A stretch of 36,248 bases of DNA from Candidatus Moraniibacteriota bacterium (GTDB taxonomy: Bacteria > Patescibacteriota > Minisyncoccia > Moranbacterales > UBA1568): contig JAHFOO010000007.1 of the NCBI GenBank assembly GCA_023261645.1, positions 22,330 to 58,577 on the forward strand, given 5' to 3'. Below are positions 1,659-5,153 of this stretch, piece after piece. Numbering within the stretch: the stretch's first letter is position 1; each line of letters starts with the position of its first letter. A program made the translations under genes and the position numbers. The notes under the pieces were generated by a model that saw nothing but the letters and a program-made list of their open reading frames with translations, made no database searches and was not told where the DNA came from.

Positions 1659-2321
1659 ATGGATACCAATCACGCCAGTTTCGATATGAAAGAGAAGAAG
1701 ACGATCATTTTCGATCTCGACGGTACGCTTGTCGATATCGAACCAATATTCGTAAAAATATTCAATACACTCGCCAAAAAATTCGGTTATGCACCGATTC
1801 ATCCGGAAGAGATTCCGACGCTTAAGAAACTCCGTCTGAAAAGCCTTATCTGGAGGCGTCTTGGATTCCGTATTTTATTATTTCCAATTATCCTGAAGCG
1901 TGGTCGTGAAGAATATCATAAACTCATTCCCGAGGTGAAACTTTTTGCTGATATGAAAGAAACGGTTTTCGCCCTTCATTCTCAAAGCTTCATCATCGGC
2001 ATTGTCTCCTCCAGCGATCAAAACACCATTACAGCACTGATGAAGAAATTTGCGATTCCTATAGACTTCATTTATCACTGCAGTATATTCAATAAAGCAA
2101 AGACTCTCAAAAGAGTTCTCAAAGAAAGGCAACTTACACCATCTGAAACTCTCTATATCGGTGATGAGGTGCGTGATATCGAGGCCTGCAACAAATGCGA
2201 TATGGACATCATTTCTGTTTCCTGGGGACTCAATAGCGAGGAAGCTCTCCGTGATGCCGGAGCAAAAATAATTGTGGCAAGTCCTTCTCTCCTCCTCGAA
2301 ATACTCACTCGCAACAGATGA
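1659..2321 (+). CDS. HAD-family hydrolase (phosphoglycolate phosphatase-like)
   Basis: FDLDGTLVD motif, SSSDQNT, ...YIGDEVRDIEAC; start chosen at ATG 1659 (alternative 1686); upstream part of ORF 1248..2321 overlaps other genes. Confidence 0.85.
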   Translation: MDTNHASFDMKEKKTIIFDLDGTLVDIEPIFVKIFNTLAKKFGYAPIHPEEIPTLKKLRLKSLIWRRLGFRILLFPIILKRGREEYHKLIPEVKLFADMKETVFALHSQSFIIGIVSSSDQNTITALMKKFAIPIDFIYHCSIFNKAKTLKRVLKERQLTPSETLYIGDEVRDIEACNKCDMDIISVSWGLNSEEALRDAGAKIIVASPSLLLEILTRNR

Positions 2322-2329
2322 ATCTGGTA

Positions 2330-2358
2330 TTGACATATACCCCCTAGAGGTATATAAT
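2330..2358 (+). promoter_or_regulatory. consensus sigma70-type promoter with embedded palindrome
   Basis: TTGACA (2330-2335), 17-nt spacer, TATAAT (2353-2358); palindrome ATATACC-CCCTAGA-GGTATAT at 2335-2355. Confidence 0.85.
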
Positions 2359-2406
2359 AAAAGTAGTGCTGGCTCTACGGTACCGATAATTATTTTCATC
2401 AAACAT

Positions 2407-2946
2407 ATGTCACACATACTCGTCGACCAAAAAGTTCCGGAAGTTGTATTCAAAACCCGTGTACGCGATGAATCGATCGGAGGAGACAATCCTTATCGTT
2501 GGCACGATCTCACCACAGATGATGTTTTCAAGGGGAAAAAGATCGTCCTTTTTGCCTTGCCTGGAGCATTCACTCCTACCTGTTCGTCGACACATCTGCC
2601 CGGATATGAATCAAACTTCCCTCTTTTCAAAAATCTCGGTATCGATCAGGTTGTTTGCCTCTCTGTCAACGATGCTTTCACGATGAAACAGTGGGCTGAC
2701 AAACTCGAAGTAAAAAATATTTTTATGTTGCCTGATGGCAACGCCGAGTTCACCAGAAAGATGGGGATGCTCGTCAAAAAAGAAAATCTCGGTTTTGGTG
2801 ATCGGTCCTGGCGCTACAGTATGTATGTCGAAGATGGCATCATCAAAAAACTCTTCGCTGAAGAAGGGTTTGTTGACAATTGCCCAGATGATCCTTTTGA
2901 AGTAAGTGGCGCCGACACGATGCTCAAATTTCTGAAGAGCCGTTAA
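2407..2946 (+). CDS. peroxiredoxin (Prx5/redoxin family)
   Basis: FALPGAFTPTCSSTHLPGYE active-site motif; start at ATG 2407 (MSHILVDQKVPEV). Confidence 0.9.
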   Translation: MSHILVDQKVPEVVFKTRVRDESIGGDNPYRWHDLTTDDVFKGKKIVLFALPGAFTPTCSSTHLPGYESNFPLFKNLGIDQVVCLSVNDAFTMKQWADKLEVKNIFMLPDGNAEFTRKMGMLVKKENLGFGDRSWRYSMYVEDGIIKKLFAEEGFVDNCPDDPFEVSGADTMLKFLKSR

Positions 2947-2956
2947 GGTAAAAAAG

Positions 2957-2991
2957 AAAGCACTCTCTGATGAACTTAGAGTGCTTTTTTT
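2957..2991. terminator. bidirectional intrinsic terminator between convergent genes
   Basis: AAAGCACTCT...AGAGTGCTTTTTTT hairpin; overlaps the stop codon of the minus-strand gene. Confidence 0.75.
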
Positions 2992-4247
2992 ATCTTCGCA
3001 GCCTCTTCTCCAGCGACATACCCGGTAGTGAAGCAGAGCTGAAGGCTGTACCCTCCTGAAGGACGATCGATGTTCAAAATATCACCCACGAGATAGAGAT
3101 TCGAATAGAGACGCGAACGCATCGTCTTGAAATCCACTTCCGGAAGAGTCACACCTCCGCTCGTAACGATTGCTTTTTCCGCTCCGAGGAGTCCGGTTAC
3201 TGTCATCTGCATACCTTTCGCTGTTCGGCCGAGAGACAATCGCTCTTCCCGACTGATGACATTGACCGCTTTCTCACCATTTATCTTTACAATCTCCAAG
3301 AGTGCAGAGGCGAAAGATGCGGGAGCAAATTCACCCAGTATATTCTTTATTTTCTTATTCTTATTCTGCTCAAAAATCTCCTGCAATTTCCTATCAATCA
3401 TACCAAAATCCATCTCTGGCAGGAGATCAAGCGAAACAACGACTTCACCGTATGGTAGGAATTCGCTGATAGACTTGCTCATATTCAGAACAAGAGGACC
3501 GCTTAAACCGAAATGCGTGAAGAGCACCTTCCCTTTCTTTGAAGGAAGTATTTTCTTTCTTTTCCCCAGCGTGTCATTTTGAAAGAAAGAAAGTTTTGCA
3601 TCTGCCAGACTGACTCCTGACAAAGCATGCACCCATTTTTCACGGATAGTGATCGGTACCAATACTGCCTGCGACTTGATGATAGTATGCCCGATTCCTT
3701 CAAGCCATCGGAAGCCATCTCCTGTCGATCCTGTTTCCGGATGAGATTTTCCTCCAGTTGCAAGAATATATGAATGAGCCTCCATTTTCTCTCCGTTTTT
3801 GAGGAGCACTCCATCTACTTTCCCCTCTCTTGCAGAGAGTCCCATAACAGACGTTCCCGGAAGAACGGTCACAGTTCCCTCATTCATATATTGCTTCAAT
3901 ACTGCAAATACAGACTCCGCCTTATCCGTCACGGGAAAAACACGTTTTTCAGCTTCAATTTTCGTCGGCATATTACGCTTATGGAAAAAATCGAGTGTAT
4001 CTTGCACTCCGAACCGTGAAAATGGTGAGAACAGAAATTTGGCAGTGTCTTTGAATTTATCCAGAAAAATATTGATATCGAATTCTGCATTGGTGAGATT
4101 GCATCGTCCTCCCCCCGTGATCAGGAGCTTCTGACCGAGAGAATCATTTTTCTCAATCAACAGAGCCCGTGCACCGCACTCTGCAGCACGTCCGGCCGCC
4201 ATCATCCCTGCCGGCCCGCCTCCGATAATAATCACATCATACTGCAT
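2976..4247 (-). CDS. NAD(P)/FAD-dependent oxidoreductase, HI0933/YhiN (BaiN-like) flavoprotein family
   Basis: MQYDVIIIGGGPAGMMAAGRAAECGARALLIEKNDSLGQKLLITGGGRCNLTN; C-terminal DILNIDRPSGGYSLQLCFTTGYVAG. Confidence 0.93.
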   Translation of the reverse strand: MQYDVIIIGGGPAGMMAAGRAAECGARALLIEKNDSLGQKLLITGGGRCNLTNAEFDINIFLDKFKDTAKFLFSPFSRFGVQDTLDFFHKRNMPTKIEAEKRVFPVTDKAESVFAVLKQYMNEGTVTVLPGTSVMGLSAREGKVDGVLLKNGEKMEAHSYILATGGKSHPETGSTGDGFRWLEGIGHTIIKSQAVLVPITIREKWVHALSGVSLADAKLSFFQNDTLGKRKKILPSKKGKVLFTHFGLSGPLVLNMSKSISEFLPYGEVVVSLDLLPEMDFGMIDRKLQEIFEQNKNKKIKNILGEFAPASFASALLEIVKINGEKAVNVISREERLSLGRTAKGMQMTVTGLLGAEKAIVTSGGVTLPEVDFKTMRSRLYSNLYLVGDILNIDRPSGGYSLQLCFTTGYVAGEEAAKIKKAL

Positions 4248-4349: not shown

Positions 4350-5153
4350 ATGCACAAACCTTCAAGTTTGCATGATTATGTCGTCGCAATTTCCACAGCG
4401 TTTTTTCTCACGGTTTTTTCAGGGTTTTATCTCTATTTCCGGCGTGGATTTATGCTTAATGCACCCGTCGGTGTGGATGCTTTCTATGTTCCGAATAAGG
4501 TCATTGCAAATGTCGGCGTGCTCATTCTGGCCCTTTCATTTCTCTTCGGACCGATTGTACGCTATTTCGATCGCTTTGACGCATGGCTCAGCTACCGCAA
4601 AGAAATAGGTATCGTCGGAGCTTTCTTAGCTATCTTTCATGGCATAATCTCATATTTTTTCCTTCCACAAAAATATCCAAGTGAATACATTGATTTCTCC
4701 TCACTTGAATTTTCTGCCGGCCTCATCGGAGTATCGATCCTTTTCTTCTTGTTCATCATTTCTTTCAAAAAAGCCATCAATCTCATAGGCGCGAGCCGTT
4801 GGTGGTTTCTACAACGCTTCGGACTTCGTCTCGCAGTAATGTTCGCTCTCATACACGTATACGCGCTCAAATGGAATGGCTGGGTAAAGTGGCTTACAGA
4901 AGGTGCTTTGCCATCAAAAGAACTCGCGGTGACTTGGTTACCCGGAGCGAGCCTCCTCACTGCACTTTTCATTACCTGGGTCGTGATTATACGACTGTAT
5001 GAGTCAGCTTTCCTTTTCAAAAGCTTCGGATTGACTACCAAGGAAATTGCTCTGAATATTGAACTCAAAACTCGTGGCCGACGATTCTTCGTCAGAAGCT
5101 TCTTGGCACTCATCATATTGTATATCCTCGTGCTGACACGCTGGGTATTGTAG
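4350..5153 (+). CDS. ferric reductase-like transmembrane (MsrQ/YedZ-like) protein
   Basis: Multiple TM segments with His residues in helices (AIFHGIISYFF, ALIHVYALKW); RKEIG...LRLAVMFALIH pattern. Confidence 0.65.
   Translation: MHKPSSLHDYVVAISTAFFLTVFSGFYLYFRRGFMLNAPVGVDAFYVPNKVIANVGVLILALSFLFGPIVRYFDRFDAWLSYRKEIGIVGAFLAIFHGIISYFFLPQKYPSEYIDFSSLEFSAGLIGVSILFFLFIISFKKAINLIGASRWWFLQRFGLRLAVMFALIHVYALKWNGWVKWLTEGALPSKELAVTWLPGASLLTALFITWVVIIRLYESAFLFKSFGLTTKEIALNIELKTRGRRFFVRSFLALIILYILVLTRWVL

Follow-up and report, generated by a model that had tools for sequence, protein, structure and literature searches.

CstR (Staphylococcus aureus; YrkD in Bacillus licheniformis) is a CsoR-family protein with two cysteines and no metal-ligand histidine, as is the putative repressor described in this work, and it represses a thiol/sulfur-linked regulon, as is predicted here. 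Its targets are the genes of rhodanese, SQR and persulfide dioxygenase, whereas those proposed here encode thioredoxin reductase, thioredoxin, peroxiredoxin and glutamate dehydrogenase (GDH) or SDR. In CstR, 28 residues lie between the cysteines (Cys-x28-Cys), and in the protein studied here there are 27. The latter also belongs to a clade of its own, with S. aureus CstR placed elsewhere in the tree, though on a long branch. Because of these differences in cysteine spacing, targets and clade, we do not file the protein as a CstR, although it would work like one.

Canonical Cu(I)-sensing CsoR proteins with copA operators, found in related Patescibacteria (loci L143, L144 and L119), have the same fold and the same style of C-tract/G-tract palindrome, but the repressor described here lacks the Cys-His-Cys site and has no copA target in its genome. 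According to PMC10318464, the Mycobacterium tuberculosis CsoR site (cso) overlaps the -10 and -35 boxes, as does the operator described below. TTHA1953, a CsoR-like sulfur-oxidation regulator of Thermus thermophilus whose binding is Cys-dependent (PMC10318464), resembles the proposed system in acting on non-metal genes at several dispersed promoters; it differs in its site, TACNNTACNNNNGTANNGTA, which has no G/C tract, and in its Sox targets. RexT of Nostoc (PMC8960804) is likewise a thiol-switch repressor of a thioredoxin gene, but it is of ArsR type, and both its protein family and its operator are unrelated.

In the open literature searched, we found no CsoR-thioredoxin-peroxiredoxin regulon and no relevant CsoR work in Patescibacteria. 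As far as could be found, known parts (a CsoR-family protein and a peroxiredoxin) are combined here in a way that has not been described, namely in a dithiol clade from Patescibacteria that is linked to the thioredoxin system. In these bacteria, genomes are very small and few transcription factors have been characterised; the system concerns how they may sense redox and sulfur stress. From sequence alone, an 85-residue repressor and a 21-bp site would define a regulon with an exact operator and an apparently autoregulated gene, whose targets form one biochemical chain of thioredoxin reductase, thioredoxin and peroxiredoxin. The repressor provides uncultured bacteria with a candidate sensor that can be tested directly, and it is a naturally occurring form of CsoR whose metal site has seemingly been rebuilt as a dithiol. 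The best explanation as a whole, to which we assign a probability of roughly 0.7, is that a palindrome in the promoter of the peroxiredoxin gene (prx) is the operator of the only CsoR-family dithiol repressor of the genome, controlling prx and a csoR-SDR-trxR operon.

The prx Gene and Its Promoter

The window, i.e., the whole analysed stretch of 36,248 nucleotides, contains prx and its promoter, while csoR is located outside it, on contig C4 of the same genome (Table 1).

Table 1. Features of the prx and csoR loci (window positions unless a contig is named).
Feature	Position	Strand	Basis
HAD-family hydrolase, upstream neighbour of prx	1659..2321	+	sequence, Pfam
prx promoter -35 element, TTGACA	2330..2335	+	read from sequence, promoter scan
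Candidate 21-bp operator, ATATACC-CCCTAGA-GGTATAT	2335..2355	no strand	inverted-repeat, pattern and matrix scans
prx promoter 17-nt spacer, TATACCCCCTAGAGGTA	2336-2352		read from sequence
Operator core, ATACC-N7-GGTAT	2337-2353		read from sequence
prx promoter -10 element, TATAAT	2353..2358	+	read from sequence, promoter scan
prx, Prx5-type peroxiredoxin, 179 aa	2407..2946	+	Pfam, PDB comparison, motif
Probable terminator hairpin 3' of prx, aagcactct...agagtgctttttt	2953..2990	+	read directly from sequence
csoR-promoter palindrome, directly 5' of csoR	C4:211,860-211,876		genome-wide pattern scan
csoR, CsoR/DUF156-family putative repressor, outside window	C4, about 211,896-212,150		PF02583

The prx product is a Redoxin/AhpC-TSA peroxiredoxin (PF08534, E = 1.2e-27 in Pfam), and its nearest relative in the PDB is the Prx5-type peroxiredoxin domain of HI0572 (1nm3, E = 2.9e-53). 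Its PGAFTPTC motif satisfies the peroxidatic pattern PxxxTPxC, with C59 as the peroxidatic cysteine; C84 is likewise kept in congeneric orthologs. Domain, motif and likeness to HI0572 support the Prx5 identity assigned in an earlier, sequence-only reading of this DNA. The gene has its own promoter, located after the HAD-family hydrolase gene. The terminator hairpin scan did not return the hairpin found behind prx by eye, which lies outside the scanner's loop limit because of its 11-nt loop. Near prx, on the opposite strand, an HI0933-like flavoprotein gene (2976-4247) adjoins that of a ferric-reductase-like transmembrane protein (4350-5153).

The promoter agrees with the consensus at 12 of 12 positions, has a 17-nt spacer and is the best promoter-like site in a scan of 2200-3050. 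Its spacer is occupied by an inverted repeat (ATATACC at 2335-2341 and GGTATAT at 2349-2355) with 7-nt arms that are 100% complementary and a 7-nt gap, which overlaps the -35 and -10 boxes and lies about 50 bp 5' of the prx ATG (2407). The 12/12 matches and perfect arms confirm what had been claimed at the outset, a perfect-consensus TTGACA/TATAAT promoter with a palindromic spacer. The operators of CsoR/RcnR proteins are defined as pseudo-palindromes that contain 4 or more consecutive G/C (quoted in PMC10318464), a definition that the candidate prx operator, TATACCCCCTAGAGGTATA, fits. When TATACCCCCNNNRGGTATA was searched on both strands of the 36-kb window with up to 3 mismatches, a single place was found, the prx operator, against 0.12 expected hits. 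A weight matrix built solely from csoR-upstream sites of other species, with none from the window's genome, gave the prx site a score of 29.4; no other site in the window scored above 11.1.

The CsoR-Family Gene of the Genome

The assembly of the window's genome (G000; 840 kb, 12 contigs, 96% complete) contains exactly one PF02583 (CsoR/DUF156) gene, so that a regulator of the family suggested from the palindrome is present. Its product, of 85 aa when counted from the first plausible ATG, scores 65.5 bits against PF02583 (curated cut-off 22.8, E = 5.7e-18), and its sequence profile matches 4m1p at 3.9e-16. The AlphaFold model (pLDDT 76.9) has helices at residues 12-32, 37-60 and 75-81, and the top 20 PDB matches in a fold search are CsoR, CstR, FrmR and InrS proteins, with E-values of at least 0.0056; the predicted fold is CsoR-like and all-helical. 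In this moderate-confidence model, one of two cysteines discussed below, C65, comes shortly after the end of helix 2 and belongs to a segment of low confidence.

The gene csoR heads an operon, followed by an SDR gene and by that of a thioredoxin-reductase-type flavoprotein with an FCSTCDAPF motif. A genome-wide scan by pattern, not by matrix (ATACCCCCNNNRGGTAT, up to 3 mismatches), gave 66 hits compared with 62 for the reversed control pattern. The prx site ranked first (0 mismatches) and the site in the csoR promoter second (1 mismatch); the remaining hits carry 2-3 mismatches and are about as numerous as those of the control. Thus, the sole comparable second copy of the palindrome is at the promoter of csoR itself, where it is placed just downstream of the -10 box. 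As read from its genes, the genome thus supplies a candidate for the cognate factor, a site placed as in autoregulation and an operon of thiol-redox genes. The only PF00085 thioredoxin gene of the genome (contig C5) had no operator site in the scan, and therefore the reductase, and not thioredoxin, would be the target in this species. The single PF02583 gene, the csoR-promoter site and the conservation of the prx site within the genus (see below) bear out the suggested CsoR-family operator, and the pairing of operator and regulator is very probably correct.

G007, a genome of the same genus, has a prx ortholog (74% identity) preceded by TTGACA-TATACCCTGTGGGGGTA-TATTAT, with the operator in the same position, and its csoR-SDR-TrxR operon bears the site ATACCCTACAGGGGTAT. 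A pairwise alignment shows the block TTGACATATACCC...GGTATAT kept between diverged flanks; in the centre of the palindrome, letters have changed, with the C-tract/G-tract character kept. Across 384 genomes of the class, 14 were found to carry this prx (E <= 1e-25). Conservation of the palindrome upstream of prx orthologs, at issue since the sequence-only reading, holds for the congeneric genome but not broadly: it is present in G000 and G007 only (2/14) and absent from the other 12. This CsoR type occurs in the same two genomes only, and the 12 others have no matches or weak matches to other types. This co-occurrence (Fisher p = 0.011, with both positives in one genus) rests on few events, as this prx and this CsoR occur together in two genomes only. 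Peroxiredoxin appears, from these comparisons, to be a second target of the dithiol CsoR in this genus.

A Clade of CsoR Proteins in Patescibacteria

An alignment of this CsoR (A1), used to search 84,980 species genomes, returned 40 close loci, belonging to Moranbacteria, Wolfebacteria, Uhrbacteria, Falkowbacteria and other Patescibacteria or bacteria, and, after a clear gap, Clostridia, Chloroflexi and others. Judged from its nearest CsoR relative (91%), the window's genome most likely belongs to Candidatus Moranbacteria (Moraniibacteriota). In a tree based on 85 columns, whose deep order is unreliable, the 40 loci and the CsoR of the window's genome form one group (support 96/97), and a separate one (100/99) holds the canonical CsoRs of copper type from the same bacterial families. 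C37 and C65 are invariant in the 21 members aligned in A1, and both were also seen among the matches listed. Most members have Cys-x27-Cys, a spacing shorter by one residue than that of CstR or CsoR. The position of the copper sensors' histidine is taken by Asp in the window genome's CsoR (Asp at +25, Cys at +28) and by Asp/Asn or other residues, never His, in the members; the Cys-His-Cys arrangement (Cys, His at +25, Cys at +29) occurs in none of them.

TrxR is encoded downstream in 33 of the 40 loci, and TrxR or TrxA in 36; a GDH or SDR gene is often found within the operon, and three second copies of csoR stand with YgaP-TM genes. The motif ATACC-N7-GGTAT lies upstream of csoR in 31 of the 40 loci, against 0.03 expected from a Markov-1 control, and as a rule it follows immediately on a TTGAC-/TAAT promoter. 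The consensus of these sites in relatives is ATATACCCCCAGGGGGTATAT. Among the other nine loci, three have the site before an operon-leading YgaP-type gene and one has it further upstream; in four of the 40, no site is recognisable before csoR although the upstream sequence is long enough. A supported subclade (L166, L171, L172, L173 and L175) has TrxA/TrxR downstream and no recognisable palindrome upstream (for L166, within only 128 bp), and its operator may have changed. In L146 (3897-6008) and L147-L165, the slot in csoR-trxR holds SDR, glutamate dehydrogenase, thioredoxin or nothing, interchangeably among related species. A MurD-like ligase gene is usually located 5' of csoR in the nearest relatives.

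The clade, specific to Patescibacteria, could represent a new class of dithiol redox/sulfane-sulfur sensors (Cys-x27-Cys, no metal site) and, in several candidate phyla, the principal regulator of the thioredoxin system, with peroxiredoxin, GDH and YgaP/ferredoxin captured via operator evolution in promoters; we give this proposal an even chance.

Proposed Mechanism and Nature of the Signal

Operators that lie over the spacer and boxes, or just after the -10 box, are both typical of repression. We propose that the reduced apo-repressor binds the A/T-flanked C-tract/G-tract palindrome, as other CsoR-family systems do. At prx, it would sit on and between the -35 and -10 boxes and sterically block RNA polymerase; its site at the csoR operon would place it just downstream of the -10 box. 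Oxidation or persulfidation of C37 and C65, most likely bridged across the dimer as in CstR, would release the DNA and switch on prx and csoR-SDR-thioredoxin reductase. Once thioredoxin/peroxiredoxin capacity was restored, it would clear the oxidant or sulfane sulfur, and the repressor would form again. The cross-dimer bridge is not assured, because C65 is one residue nearer and, in the model, comes shortly after the end of helix 2. A pair of thiols with no metal site corresponds to the design of CstR, from which we infer, by analogy, a thiol-based sensing step. The CstR-like YrkD loses its DNA sites after treatment with elemental sulfur, i.e., sulfane sulfur (PMC9918477). Since a peroxiredoxin of Synechococcus reduces elemental sulfur to H2S (PMC9426444), prx and trxR would fit a defence against peroxide or sulfane sulfur alike. 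It is likely that the signal acts by thiol chemistry, and the case for sulfane sulfur in particular is evenly balanced.

The alternative explanations concern the site itself and the signal. It is very improbable that the palindrome arose by chance from a consensus promoter and has no cognate factor: the outer A and the TAT of its arms do come from the -35 and -10 boxes, but the core scarcely depends on box letters, the site is the top match of the genome, resembles the csoR site and fits an independent matrix, and the congeneric genome keeps it with an altered yet still C-tract/G-tract centre. Its uniqueness in the window, the genome-wide scan and the matrix score led us to reject this explanation. 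If the palindrome is accepted as an operator, the repressor might sense a metal (Cu(I) or Ni/Co), with prx and trxR belonging to metal-stress defence. PF02583 members are mostly metal sensors, the best NCBIfam model is the copper sensor RicR (far below cut-off), and two thiols alone can bind Cu(I). Moreover, a genome of the same family (G023) has a canonical copper-type CsoR with a near-identical palindrome before itself and before copA (L119 1992, 7871), so the palindrome alone does not reveal the signal. Nevertheless, in the clade, the His ligand is replaced and the Cys spacing changed, the clade is separate from the copper type of CPR bacteria, and neither the genome-wide pattern scan nor inspection of the locus found an operator at the genome's own HMA/TauE-CopA operon (C3:68,521 onward), which makes copper sensing unlikely. 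A 3-mismatch hit near copA (C3:69,724) was dismissed, as it is part of the preceding gene's coding sequence. Residues, tree and unmarked CopA operon thus disfavour a copper sensor, and we consider metal sensing in general improbable. The two invariant cysteines, the missing metal-ligand histidine, TrxR in the operon and the CopA operon without an operator favour a thiol or persulfide over a metal as the predicted signal.

A signal other than persulfide or peroxide could act on the same operator and repressor, namely an electrophile or aldehyde, as with FrmR, or the oxidised-to-reduced thioredoxin ratio. In its favour are the SDR or glutamate dehydrogenase genes present in the csoR-trxR operon of many relatives and the fact that TrxA/TrxR is the most constant partner; however, the equivalent of FrmR His60 is absent, and the operon dehydrogenases vary while TrxR is constant. 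We regard such signals as possible but rather unlikely, and prefer thiol oxidation or persulfidation.

Copper Genes and Further Operators in Relatives

The copper locus of the window's genome (L252, L243) consists of an HMA-TauE/cupredoxin-like fusion gene followed by that of a CopA-type ATPase. Because this genome has no copper-type CsoR, its copper efflux would be unregulated or otherwise controlled.

In relatives, the same palindrome occurs at glutamate dehydrogenase promoters (L110, L117) and possibly at a thioredoxin promoter (L112, 336 bp away). The genes that CstR usually controls (rhodanese, SQR, persulfide dioxygenase) were not seen at these operators. Promoters of YgaP-TM and ferredoxin genes also carry it, with a divergent RND adaptor gene in L109, L115 and L120 and without the adaptor in L118. 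Between the RND adaptor and YgaP-TM genes (L109 3152, L115 2176, L120 2815), the palindrome stands between TTGACA and TGTCAA, so that a single operator appears to lie in the spacers of two back-to-back promoters. In L114 (3021), the palindrome is found 97 bp before a shikimate-dehydrogenase-like gene, in which the AroE domain is the C-terminal part of a 495-aa protein.
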